DNA of 16,485 nt from Candidatus Levyibacteriota bacterium. GTDB lineage: Bacteria > Patescibacteria > Microgenomatia > Levybacterales > UBA12049. Each line of letters starts with the position of its first letter. The first letter of the stretch is position 1. Below, piece by piece: positions 2,595 through 5,264 of this stretch. The stretch spans positions 1-16,485 of the forward strand of contig PPGL01000104.1 of assembly GCA_003173915.1 (NCBI GenBank). Reading direction: 5' to 3'. A program made the translations under genes and the position numbers. A model generated the notes under the pieces. That model saw only the letters and a program-made list of their open reading frames with translations, searched no databases and was not told the origin of the DNA.

Positions 2595-2873
2595 TTACAC
2601 TGTTTTTGGATATATTACCCTACCAATTATTTCTTTTTTTTCAATCCAACCAAATGTACGACTATCAGTACTTTCATAAGTGTTATCACCAAGAACAAAA
2701 TATTTATTTCGCTTTATCTCTTTTACTCTTTTTAAAAAATATCGTTTTGTAGGATAATGATAAAAAACAATCACACTTCCCAACACGATAGCGGAAAAAC
2801 GATGGTTGATAACCAGTACTCTATCTCCAGGTGAAAAAGTTGGTTTCATACTATTGCCTGTTACACGAAACAC
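2595..2873 (-). CDS. sodX: S26-family peptidase, probable Ni-SOD maturation protease (SodX-like)
   Basis: Short signal-peptidase-like serine/lysine protease of 92 residues. It shows GNSMKPT with nucleophile Ser8, YFLKRV with the general-base Lys48, and the later boxes GDN (62-64) and S-T-D-S-R-x-F-G (68-75). Compact S26 proteins of this kind, encoded beside sodN, remove the Ni-SOD leader so that His1 and the two cysteines become free to bind nickel. The neighbouring upstream gene is exactly such a precursor, which makes this role much more likely than general protein export. The start called here is GTG with no Shine-Dalgarno site. The frame stays open upstream through a hydrophobic stretch (IFKKIFFSFSPLLV) but without ATG, GTG or TTG, so the true N-terminus is uncertain and could include a short membrane-associating segment. 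Confidence 0.85.
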   Translation of the reverse strand: MFRVTGNSMKPTFSPGDRVLVINHRFSAIVLGSVIVFYHYPTKRYFLKRVKEIKRNKYFVLGDNTYESTDSRTFGWIEKKEIIGRVIYPKTV

Positions 2874-2919
2874 TAGTAGAGGAGAGAAAGAAAAAAATAT
2901 TTTTTTAAAAATTGAACTA

Positions 2920-3393
2920 TTACGAAGTATAGGTAACTATTTCTCCTTTTGTTGGATATAATGATGGGACACGAACAGGAGTAACGTTTTTGGTTTTATA
3001 AAAAATTTCAGCAACTTGTAACACTTTTTCAATAAGCATCTGAGCTTTTTCAACACTCACCTGCTGACGAGTTTCAATAGAAAGTTTCACTGCATCTTTA
3101 AGTAATCCTTTCAACTCTGGAAACTTTTCGTGATGCTCTGGTTTGAAATAATCATGTTCAAGTGTACCTAACTCGCTTTCAACTCGAGAACCATGTTCTT
3201 CTTTTACATGAACAACTCTAGAAACATCATGCATCGTTTCTTTTTCTCCCAAAAGTTGTGTCATACGAAGTACCGTGTGTGCAGCAATTTGTGCTGGCGT
3301 TGGGTCATAGATACCACACGGAATATCACAATGTGCGTAAACTGTTTGAGAGGGAAAACGAGAAAGAATTTTTTGTAAAATTTTCTGTTTCAT
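2920..3393 (-). CDS. sodN: Nickel-type superoxide dismutase precursor
   Basis: Converts superoxide to oxygen and hydrogen peroxide at a nickel centre. The decisive feature is the nickel-hook sequence HCDIPCGIYDP at residues 21-31, matching the family consensus H-C-x-x-P-C-G-x-Y. His21 becomes the mature N-terminus, and Cys22 and Cys26 are the thiolate ligands. The first 20 residues (MKQK...VYA) are the propeptide to be cut before His21. The mature part of about 137 residues is somewhat longer than well-studied Ni-SODs, with an extra C-terminal tail (TPVRVPSLYP). The four-helix body is visible as amphipathic stretches between about residues 32 and 135. The putative maturation protease lies 46 bases downstream. 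A TTGACA/TACTGT promoter sits directly before the ATG, suggesting a leaderless message. There is no twin-arginine or Sec signal, so it should be cytosolic. Confidence 0.93.
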   Translation of the reverse strand: MKQKILQKILSRFPSQTVYAHCDIPCGIYDPTPAQIAAHTVLRMTQLLGEKETMHDVSRVVHVKEEHGSRVESELGTLEHDYFKPEHHEKFPELKGLLKDAVKLSIETRQQVSVEKAQMLIEKVLQVAEIFYKTKNVTPVRVPSLYPTKGEIVTYTS

Positions 3394-3559: not shown

Positions 3560-3568
3560 TGCTATAAT
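3560..3568 (+). promoter_or_regulatory. Extended -10 promoter for the T-box leader
   Basis: TG at 3560-3561, one base and a consensus TATAAT at 3563-3568 make a strong extended -10 element. No convincing -35 is seen 17 bases upstream. Transcription would start near 3574-3576, giving a leader of about 180 bases before the PEP carboxylase ATG. The stretch 3450-3555 upstream holds nothing else that can be recognised. Confidence 0.6.
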
Positions 3569-3573
3569 AGAGA

Positions 3574-3734
3574 AAAGCGTTGATACTGCAACACAGTGGA
3601 GCTGAGGAAAGAAATTCTTTAAGAATGTAGAATCCTTCGGGTTGCCCGTTATAGCAATAAGAGAATAAAGTAAGGTGGCACCGCCCAGAACTTCTGAGCC
3701 CTTACAAAATTAGCAATAATTTTGAGGGCTTTTT
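3574..3734 (+). ncRNA. T-box riboswitch leader (tRNA-sensing) with antiterminator and terminator
   Basis: The T-box core AAGGTGGCACCGCC (3672-3685) matches the family consensus AGGGUGGNACCGCG in 12 of 14 positions. The antiterminator folds as helix A1 GTAAGG (3670-3675) with CCTTAC (3700-3705), the seven-base bulge TGGCACC (3676-3682), and helix A2 GC (3683-3684) with GC (3698-3699) plus CAGA (3686-3689) with TCTG (3693-3696). The competing terminator pairs AGCCCT (3697-3702) with AGGGCT (3725-3730) and CAAAATT (3705-3711) with AATTTTG (3718-3724), then a T run, and it consumes the 3' half of A1. TGGC in the bulge would pair with a tRNA ending GCCA, meaning discriminator base G. Upstream, TTGC/GCAA (3642-3645/3654-3657) and GCAAC/GTTGC (3588-3592/3641-3645) are alternative helices. 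The specifier codon is not resolved. Confidence 0.88.
3697..3734 (+). terminator. Intrinsic terminator of the T-box leader
   Basis: A 13-base-pair hairpin with a two-base bulge: AGCCCT and CAAAATT on the left pair with AATTTTG and AGGGCT on the right around the loop AGCAAT, followed by TTTT. Its left arm overlaps the 3' half of the antiterminator, so the two are mutually exclusive, as expected for transcription-attenuating T-boxes. Confidence 0.85.
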
Positions 3735-3755
3735 GTATTTTTTTATTATAGTAAT

Positions 3756-5264
3756 ATGCAAAAAAGAAAAATTTCTGCAACCATGGCAACACAACATCCA
3801 GATCATGCTGCAACTCCTTATTGGCATTCCGGTCCATTTATTAGCACCCAAGATGAAGCACGCGAAGCATTTTTGGCTTTTTCCGAACTTGGCATACATG
3901 AATATAAGTGGGACTGGGAAGGAAAATTGGTCGATGAATCAGTCCTTGAAAGATTTTTTGCAGAACATTTTGATTTTTTTAAGAAATATCCATTAGGACA
4001 AGAGCGATTCTTAACATACAGACTACCAAATCCTAAAGTACAAACAGAGTTTAGAATAGGACGAGCATTCATGAATTTGGCAAGTGCCGCCTCTGTTGCC
4101 AAACATTTTGGTCTTCCCACTCCTCCTCTTTTTGAAGTTATTTTACCCATGACAGAAACTCCTGAGGAAATTATTGCTCTTCAAATTGCATATCAAGAAA
4201 TGCATAAGCTAAAACATCCTTTATATCGTTTAGAAAATATTTTGACAAATCTTCGTGTTATTCCACTTTTTGAGCAAGTTGGGACGATTATTAACTCTGA
4301 CAAAATTTTACCAAAATATTTTTCACTTTATCAAAAAGAATTTAAAAAACTTCCACCGTATTTTCGACCATATGTTGCTCGCTCTGATCCAGCACTTAAT
4401 TCAGGCATGCTTCCAACTGTTTTGGCAATAAAAATAGCTCTTTCAAATTATCAACAGCTTGAAAAAGAGCTTGGCATTCCAATGTATCCAATTATTGGGG
4501 CAGCAGCACTTCCATTTCGTGGAGGAATTTCTCCACATACCATAATGGATTTTGCGAACGAATATAAAGGGATACGAACAACAACAATCCAAAGTGCATT
4601 TCGATATGATTTTGAGAAACAAGAAGTTATTGATGCAATTGCACAACTTGAAGATATTCTTCCAAAACGTACTGCGATACATATTGACTCAAAAGATCAA
4701 CAAGAATTAAAACATGTTATTGCACAAAGTGAAATTTTCTATCGCCAAACAATAGAAAAAATGGCTCCCCTTATTAATGCGATCTCCTCACATATTCCAC
4801 CCAGGAGAGAGCGGGTTCAGCATATTGGTTTGTTTGGATATTCAAGAGGGGTTGGTAAAGTCAAACTTCCTCGTGCAATTACTTTCACAGGAGCACTCTA
4901 TTCTCTTGGCATTCCACCAGAAATTATTGGAACAGGAAGAACTTTAAGACTAATAAGAACACAGGGAAAAGAAGCATTGGTAAAAAAGTATTATCTCAAT
5001 CTAACATCAGACCTTTCGTTTGCAGGAAGATTTCTTAATAAATCTGTTTTGAAAAAACTTACGAAAACATCTTCTGCTTGGGAAGAAATAGAAACAGATG
5101 TAAAAGAAATTGAACAATTTTTGGGGCATACACTTGCTCCACAAAAAGATACAGAAAAAGAGCATCACCATATTTCAACAGTACTTTTTCAGCATCTTGA
5201 AAAAGGACTCCCAATACAATCCCATATCAATCAGAGCGCACTTCTACGAAAAAGCTTAGGATAA
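3756..5264 (+). CDS. ppcA: Archaeal-type phosphoenolpyruvate carboxylase
   Basis: Carboxylates PEP with bicarbonate to oxaloacetate, feeding aspartate, asparagine and related synthesis. The protein (502 residues) is the short archaeal-type family, not the ~900-residue bacterial type. It has the N-terminal signature ATMATQHPD (8-16), WDWEGK (52-57), FEVILPMT (126-133), ARSDPALNSG (208-217), FRGG (254-257), GLFGYSRGVGKVKLPRA and the closing EIIGTGR segment. The ATG at 3756 is supported by the position of the TQHPD motif relative to family members. No Shine-Dalgarno site is visible before it. Expression should depend on the T-box upstream, so carboxylase synthesis would rise when a particular tRNA is uncharged. 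Discriminator G is compatible with tRNA-Asp or tRNA-Asn, which would make metabolic sense, but this is inference. A few bacteria are known to carry this enzyme, probably by transfer from archaea. Confidence 0.93.
   Translation: MQKRKISATMATQHPDHAATPYWHSGPFISTQDEAREAFLAFSELGIHEYKWDWEGKLVDESVLERFFAEHFDFFKKYPLGQERFLTYRLPNPKVQTEFRIGRAFMNLASAASVAKHFGLPTPPLFEVILPMTETPEEIIALQIAYQEMHKLKHPLYRLENILTNLRVIPLFEQVGTIINSDKILPKYFSLYQKEFKKLPPYFRPYVARSDPALNSGMLPTVLAIKIALSNYQQLEKELGIPMYPIIGAAALPFRGGISPHTIMDFANEYKGIRTTTIQSAFRYDFEKQEVIDAIAQLEDILPKRTAIHIDSKDQQELKHVIAQSEIFYRQTIEKMAPLINAISSHIPPRRERVQHIGLFGYSRGVGKVKLPRAITFTGALYSLGIPPEIIGTGRTLRLIRTQGKEALVKKYYLNLTSDLSFAGRFLNKSVLKKLTKTSSAWEEIETDVKEIEQFLGHTLAPQKDTEKEHHHISTVLFQHLEKGLPIQSHINQSALLRKSLG

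Follow-up and report, generated by a model that had tools for sequence, protein, structure and literature searches.

T-box riboswitches with a short Stem I have been described mostly in connection with translation. The available text of a review (PMC7583486) states that a short Stem I is found mostly in translational T-boxes, that most intermediate and ultrashort elements are translational, and that a transcriptional T-box generally needs contact with the tRNA elbow. The short and ultrashort T-boxes of ileS in Nocardia farcinica and Mycobacterium tuberculosis, as far as the accessible portions of PMC7583486 and PMC10651847 describe them, combine a Stem I containing a kink-turn (K-turn) and an apical specifier with a Stem II S-turn and a Stem IIA/B pseudoknot. 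Truncation of Stem I in class I T-boxes had also been noticed earlier in TBDB, the accessible part of which names neither Patescibacteria nor PEP carboxylase.

The leader reported here precedes ppcA in the window, i.e., the whole stretch of 16,485 nt that was analysed, from a Candidatus Levyibacteriota bacterium. It shares all of the above features of the ileS type but differs from it in that its output looks like an intrinsic terminator, its codon is one for Asn or Asp, and its host is a patescibacterium. With the transcriptional T-box (RF00230), it shares the T-box sequence, the 7-nt UGGNACC bulge, the competition of an antiterminator with a terminator, a specifier that matches the gene, the Stem II S-turn, and the IIA/B pseudoknot, whereas its Stem I has only 28 nt and no distal tRNA-elbow motif, its specifier is apical rather than in a side bulge, its target is a PEP carboxylase, and its score is below gathering. 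Compact T-boxes in front of non-discriminating aspS (L270–L273, L275, L277, L279, L288, and L289), which were found by a model built on ppc leaders, have the same aptamer and AAC or GAC loops; they precede a tRNA synthetase gene, while the ppc leaders precede a gene for a carbon-metabolism enzyme. Literature searches, with subscription papers mostly outside their reach, gave no report linking a T-box to PEP carboxylase (the sole co-mention being a lysine riboswitch paper), none of a T-box riboswitch in the candidate phyla radiation or Patescibacteria, and none of an “ultrashort Stem I” T-box; in the accessible text of a review of Patescibacteria (PMC11665869), riboswitches figure only as tools. 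Within the literature searched, the T-box family and the truncated Stem I are known, while the combination of an apical specifier with a terminator and the PEP carboxylase target look new. Judged by sequence and comparative evidence, the leader is very probably an ultrashort-Stem-I, transcription-attenuating T-box that would control ppcA through the charging of tRNA-Asn.

Architecture of the ppcA Leader

The leader is located between ppcA and a divergent nickel superoxide dismutase gene (Table 1). The sequence-only reading, made from the letters of the window, had placed an archaeal-type PEP carboxylase directly behind a T-box leader, and both profiles agree, as the ppcA product matched PF14010 with an E of 8.8e-136 and scored 492.1 bits against TIGR02751 (cut-off 146.05), placing it in the archaeal-type family. 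The divergent genes, sodN (132.8 bits vs. 90) and a maturation protease gene (70.4 vs. 63.25), occupy 2595–3393 on the minus strand; a sodN-like ORF was also seen by eye upstream of ppc in L001/L057 and apparently occurs in L002.

Table 1. Features of the ppcA leader and its gene; positions are those of the window.
Feature	Position	Strand	Evidence
Extended −10 promoter element, TGCTATAAT; transcription start would be ~3575, at the foot of Stem I	3560–3568	+	Read by eye
Entire T-box leader RNA, through the T-rich tract of the terminator	3575–3738	+	Rfam match, fold, energies
Ultrashort Stem I, 28 nt	3576–3603	+	Fold, covariation, Rfam alignment
Specifier codon AAC (Asn), then purine A3593	3590–3592	+	Loop decoding rule
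Stem II with S-turn letters AAGAAA (3609–3614) and GUAGAA (3627–3632)	3605–3636	+	Alignment A2
Stem IIA/B pseudoknot: CGG/CCG, and UUGC (3642–3645) with GCAA (3654–3657)	3638–3658	+	Covariation
Antiterminator; T-box bulge UGGCACC (7 nt) at 3676–3682	3670–3705	+	Rfam alignment, energy calculation
Intrinsic terminator hairpin, then TTTT; 5′ arm overlaps the antiterminator	3697–3730	+	Energy calculation, strict terminator script
ppcA, archaeal-type phosphoenolpyruvate carboxylase, 502 aa	3756–5264	+	ORF, PF14010, TIGR02751

That reading had correctly put the switch in front of ppcA but had begun it elsewhere; the start falls at about 3575, next to the extended −10 element, which a consensus promoter scan did not list (no fitting −35). 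Stem I is composed, in 5′ to 3′ order, of AGC, GUUGA, UACUG, the loop CAACA, CAGUG, GA, and GCU, which form an AGC/GCU base helix, a K-turn (GUUGA/GA), a UACUG/CAGUG helix, and a 5-nt apical loop. Because Stem I has 28 nt and this loop only 5 nt, the leader falls outside the canonical long Stem I subclass, and the distal tRNA-elbow motif (IDTM) is absent; a short Stem I hairpin with the specifier in its apical loop is instead a feature of ultrashort translational T-boxes. Both the Stem II S-turn and the IIA/B pseudoknot that characterise T-box riboswitches are present, the S-turn letters being nearly invariant and among the most conserved columns of the aptamer in an alignment of ppc leaders (A2, described below), and the pseudoknot showing covariation.

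Specifier Codon and tRNA Discriminator

The specifier was read with a loop rule, by which a cognate codon followed by a purine lies within the Stem I hairpin loop, one closing base per side being counted as loop; this agrees with the published rule, given in the accessible text of PMC7778990, that the specifier occupies positions 2–4 from the 3′ end of the specifier bulge. The rule was scored on two sets of leaders whose downstream genes were named from NCBIfam. Among 40 class leaders, picked for short matches (≤~180 nt) among the matches listed and thereby favouring a short Stem I, scoring covered the 24 whose downstream gene could be tied to an amino acid, with loop finding confined to the place of Stem I after an unrestricted version had often chosen the wrong hairpin; the cognate codon was found in 19 (all but L133, L151, L157, L158, and L170), against a gene-shuffled mean of 6.25, and none of 5000 shuffles was as high. 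A wider sample comprised 30 loci from the 85 genomes with a match to the ppc-derived model, 28 of which were scored (L268 is the L001 locus, and L269 gave no ORF); here, with the range of loop lengths widened after a first look, the cognate codon was found in 25 (all but L278, L282, and L292; shuffled mean 11.4, again with 0/5000 as high).

All 14 ppc-associated loops, picked by eye, contain AAC or GAC followed by A. Seven have AAC (the window, L122, L009, L015, L026, L121, and L123) and seven have GAC (L001, L024, L046, L111, L120, L127, and L117); an AAC/GAC-type codon was found in 3/21 loops of control leaders for other amino acids. The specifier is hence cognate to the function of the downstream gene, as in T-boxes generally, and the codons are of the kind that the sequence-only reading had anticipated, namely for an amino acid derived from oxaloacetate (AAC, for Asn, in the window and AAC or GAC in its relatives).

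One point counts against the Asn reading, as the apical loop has 5 nt in the window and 6 nt in most relatives, so that the register is not fixed by length alone and CAACA might be read as CAA (Gln) or ACA (Thr), making another tRNA the effector. This alternative is improbable; among the candidate codons, only AAC precedes the required purine under a rule that was right in most of the test leaders of both sets, and all 13 related ppc leaders carry AAC or GAC. The tRNA discriminators bear on it as well. According to the accessible text of TBDB, UGGN usually pairs with the discriminator, wobble being allowed. Among the relatives, tRNA-Thr has discriminator U (11/11), which gives no pairing with UGGC, while tRNA-Gln has G (3/3), as the Gln reading would demand; the discriminator is A on tRNA-Pro, tRNA-Ile, and tRNA-Glu, and U also on tRNA-Gly.

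Returning to Asn and Asp, the evidence on the inference that UGGC calls for discriminator G, and so for tRNA-Asp or tRNA-Asn, is mixed. Discriminator G was found on 5/5 tRNA-Asp of relatives and on one of two tRNA-Asn called by ARAGORN (that of L252, in G004), but N is C in only nine of the 14 ppc leaders (the window included) and U in the other five, where it would have to wobble with G73. The second ARAGORN call, in L081 (~89 nt, discriminator C), is probably spurious and was rejected. No tRNA-Asn was found among the tRNAs read from G001 and G311, the latter of which has an AAC leader, and a DNA pattern for tRNA-Asn gave nothing in four genomes. In the wider sample, N was C in 6/7 readable Asp/Asn synthetase leaders vs. 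0/14 readable Ile/Val/Tyr leaders; all three class-sample aspS leaders (L135, L137, and L142), which count against the pattern, have U, and several leaders before genes of no known identity have C. The UGGN evidence for an Asp or Asn tRNA is supportive, not decisive.

Rfam Match and Covariation

A permissive Rfam scan matched RF00230 to 3571–3706 (43.9 bits, E 9e-9), so that the T-box call of the sequence-only reading has a covariance-model match behind it, though one under the gathering score of 93; at gathering scores, Rfam gave nothing across the window. The gathering score is a curator’s cut-off and not a structural feature, and the low score results from the ultrashort Stem I, 74 Stem I positions of the model being represented by 3 bases. 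The leader (3573–3738) folds better than its shuffles (z −2.22; 5/200 shuffles as good), and its unconstrained fold includes the terminator, with part of the T-box region paired elsewhere.

The nearest relative, L001 (PEPC 68% identical), shows this architecture before ppc as well. Alignment A2 contains 12 of the 13 ppc leaders then known (L111 was omitted for its long loop) and was made structure-free with plain MAFFT, which misaligns some helices. Two-sided changes occur at 17/24 pairs (0/500 shuffles as high), and the covariation score is 0.368 vs. 0.161 in shuffles (0/500 as high), falling to 0.074–0.142 when pairing partners are slid; paired cells amount to 72.8% vs. 59.7% in shuffles (0/500 as high), a measure that favours the window structure because the structure was read from the window itself. 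The measure “further pair types” was reached by 5/500 shuffles and the other four of the five measures by none. The IIB pseudoknot helix shows two-sided changes in 3/4 pairs, with 91.7% of cells paired; pairing is weak in the inner Stem II helix (45.8%) and in IIA (63.9%), which counts against the structure and is partly due to plain MAFFT shifting these helices. The base of Stem I is weak or rearranged in L127 and L046. By eye, an extra hairpin seems to be inserted on the 5′ side of Stem I in L046 (~2655–2735), with the GAC loop kept. With the shared architecture of L001 and covariation beyond that of 500 shuffles, the leader is no chance match.

A Stem I without the tRNA-elbow motif, a score below gathering, and a patchy distribution among relatives might also be expected if the loss of the distal Stem I had left a degenerate T-box relic, or a plain terminator, unable to sense tRNA. 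This is highly improbable, since pairing in Stem I, in the outer Stem II helix, and in the IIB pseudoknot is maintained by compensatory changes, the S-turn columns are nearly invariant, and among other leaders of this kind the loop codon agrees with the gene downstream.

Output of the Leader

The sequence-only reading had described a near-consensus T-box, a complete antiterminator with a 7-nt bulge, and an exclusive terminator, all of which are upheld by the sequence and by calculated energies. The T-box sequence AAGGUGGCACCGCC lies at 3672–3685, and the antiterminator arms are GUAAGG/CCUUAC (A1) and GC.CAGA/UCUG.GC (A2). Antiterminator and terminator overlap at 3697–3705 and are therefore mutually exclusive; the terminator hairpin is the more stable (−14.1 vs. 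−9.0 kcal/mol for the antiterminator), and termination is therefore likely the default. This hairpin, which carries a 2-nt bulge, was missed by a generic terminator scan.

A strict script, which looks for a stem and a T tract beyond the T-box, found a terminator in 11/14 ppc leaders (shuffled expectation 0.3); the three that miss the rule (L001, L111, and L122) have, by eye, a hairpin separated from the T run by a single base. From these sequence features, the ppc leaders seem to act on transcription; the output of the wider class of short leaders, with 16/28 leaders of the wider sample passing the same script, is less sure. In place of the sequestered ribosome binding site of ultrashort translational T-boxes, the ppcA leader has a terminator with a T tract. 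That it is nevertheless a translational T-box of the actinobacterial ultrashort type, whose 3′ hairpin hides the start region instead of terminating, as its ileS-like K-turn Stem I, S-turn, and IIA/B pseudoknot (accessible text of PMC7583486 and PMC10651847) and the modest terminator count of the wider sample might suggest, is very unlikely in view of the T tract in the window, of the ppc leaders, each with a terminator by script or by eye, and of the lack of any Shine-Dalgarno sequence apparent by eye ahead of the ATG at 3756.

Distribution among PEP Carboxylase Genes

An initial protein-pattern scan for ppc relatives found none; an alignment search with PEPC succeeded and gave 48 ppc loci from named genomes; across the class, PEPC turned up in 41/373 genomes. 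The class and phylum genomes were taken to be patescibacterial, as they contain, among other named loci, L003 (Levyibacteriota) and L009 and L026 (Woesebacteria). The sequence-only reading had looked to orthologous ppc genes for the same leader and would have counted loss of the antiterminator in relatives with a conserved ppcA against itself; this objection applies in part, control of ppc being patchy. With motif scans and a covariance model trained on 12 of the leaders, a T-box was located upstream, on the ppc strand, in only 14/71 PEPC sources, but with a codon for Asp or Asn in every one; the 71 include one duplicate (L034 = L108), two archaeal loci (L042 and L045), and four sources with <400 nt upstream (L022, L035, L126, and L129). 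Twelve of the 14 had themselves gone into the building of that model; L111 and L117, which had not, were matched by it at 6e-8 and 3e-10. No convincing model match was found upstream of PEPC in the other 57/71 sources, including L002 and L003, which are near the window in the tree, and a motif scan of L131, which is outside the 71, found no T-box. Hairpins near the ATG in L002 and L005 had been considered as T-boxes and were dropped, having neither a T-box motif nor a model match.

The T-box stands before ppc itself in eight cases (the window, L001, L024, L046, L111, L117, L120, and L122) and before an aminotransferase–ppc pair in six (L009, L015, L026, L121, L123, and L127). The best NCBIfam match of all six aminotransferases is aspartate aminotransferase, at scores of 370–424 that lie below the cut-off of 550. 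One genome (G046) has two ppc genes, one of them a partial match, each with its own AAC T-box, L122 before ppc and L123 before an aminotransferase–ppc pair; this assembly may be real or may reflect a binning error. In L024 (2850–2960), a long inverted repeat separates the T-box terminator from ppc; by eye, a core like that of the repeat also occurs near another T-box match in the same genome (L059), Rfam gave no match to the repeat at E 0.05, and it is perhaps a small mobile element.

In a quick PEPC tree of 61 rows (ten of the 71 sources are absent), the nearest named kin of the window are Microgenomates and Levyibacteriota bacteria. Presence vs. absence of the T-box requires nine changes on this tree, six of which are forced by well-supported branches alone, and the label is clustered (as low in 1/500 shuffles). 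The ppc switch has been gained or lost repeatedly, which weakens any claim of ancestral control of ppc; that it recurs in this position with an Asp or Asn codon speaks for a function.

T-Boxes in the Class at Large

T-boxes had been considered mainly a feature of Firmicutes and Actinobacteria, an expectation that does not hold here, as they are common in this class; RF00230 matched in 151/281 class genomes at E ≤ 1e-3 (over the gathering cut-off in 17), a search that also matched 5/14 control genomes, and the ppc-derived model matched in 85/379 phylum genomes at E ≤ 1e-4. By eye, the 17 above-cut-off leaders resemble canonical long Stem I leaders. Since some genomes have both a long and a short leader (e.g., G062, G070, G223, and G091), the short leaders are best regarded as a separate, second class alongside the canonical T-boxes. 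Several of the canonical-looking long Stem I T-boxes of class genomes (L061–L077) precede ORFs of no assigned identity.

For 9/10 Asp-type synthetases in the wider sample, those of the nine compact aspS T-boxes named above, the best match is the tRNA(Asn)-type non-discriminating aspartate ligase, and for the tenth (L285) it is bacterial aspS. Near-identical T-box ends (UGGCACC) in L156, L160, and L169 (G088, G183, and G064) precede ORFs of ~300 aa with no NCBIfam match at 1e-20; by eye, the ORFs of L160 and L169 look related, while the start of the L156 ORF does not. A compact T-box in L152 (G062), with the loop AUGACA (GAC, Asp), precedes an ORF that looks asparaginase-like by eye and has no NCBIfam match at 1e-20. 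In L138 and L147, the first gene found after the T-box encodes a CsaA-type tRNA-binding protein, and a similar small ORF seems, by eye, to lie ahead of proS in L164, L168, and L170. Near-identical T-boxes in L139 and L141 (G258 and G058), with a loop that seems by eye to hold UAC (Tyr), precede genes for M20-type peptidases/deacylases.

On balance, we lean towards the view that T-boxes that have an ultrashort Stem I and terminate transcription form a large and little-noticed class in Patescibacteria. Their specifier would lie in a hairpin loop of 5 to 10 nt, and they would make no contact with the tRNA elbow; their targets would be synthetases and amino-acid synthesis, with PEP carboxylase among them through repeated gains or losses. 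If so, the tRNA would have to be captured ahead of the polymerase’s arrival at the terminator, in the absence of the motif credited with fast capture, and a tRNA-sensing attenuator could work with an aptamer of ~90 nt.

Proposed Mechanism and Biological Meaning

From the computed parts, their covariation, the specifier rule, and the gene context, we infer tRNA binding, the sensing of charging, the direction of control, and the use made of oxaloacetate. The apical loop of Stem I would present AAC to the anticodon GUU of tRNA-Asn, with the K-turn, the Stem II S-turn, and the IIA/B pseudoknot bracing the codon–anticodon contact. The 3′ end of an uncharged tRNA, GCCA, would pair with the UGGC of the T-box bulge and stabilise the antiterminator, allowing ppcA to be transcribed, while the terminator would form when the tRNA is charged or absent. 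A fall in the charging of tRNA-Asn would in this way lead to synthesis of PEP carboxylase and to oxaloacetate for aspartate and asparagine.

PEPC makes oxaloacetate, and aspartate aminotransferase converts oxaloacetate to aspartate. The sequence-only reading had proposed that the cell tunes carbon fixation by sensing uncharged tRNA; this interpretation is supported, with the adjustment that the likely role is the supply of oxaloacetate for Asp and Asn and not carbon fixation in general. Non-discriminating aspartate ligases load Asp on tRNA-Asn before amidation, and the charging of both tRNAs would therefore report aspartate supply. Such a shared readout of aspartate may explain the exchange of AAC and GAC between close relatives, as between the window (AAC) and its sister L001 (GAC; SH-aLRT support 97).

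As the loop codon is mostly readable directly, leaders of this class could help to connect unidentified genes of these genomes with particular amino acids. The ppcA leader would also provide a compact natural case for asking whether a transcriptional T-box needs contact with the tRNA elbow, as stated in the accessible text of the review cited above (PMC7583486). For the organisms themselves, a group in which regulation has been little studied, it would extend control by tRNA charging from synthetases and amino-acid enzymes to an anaplerotic enzyme of carbon metabolism.
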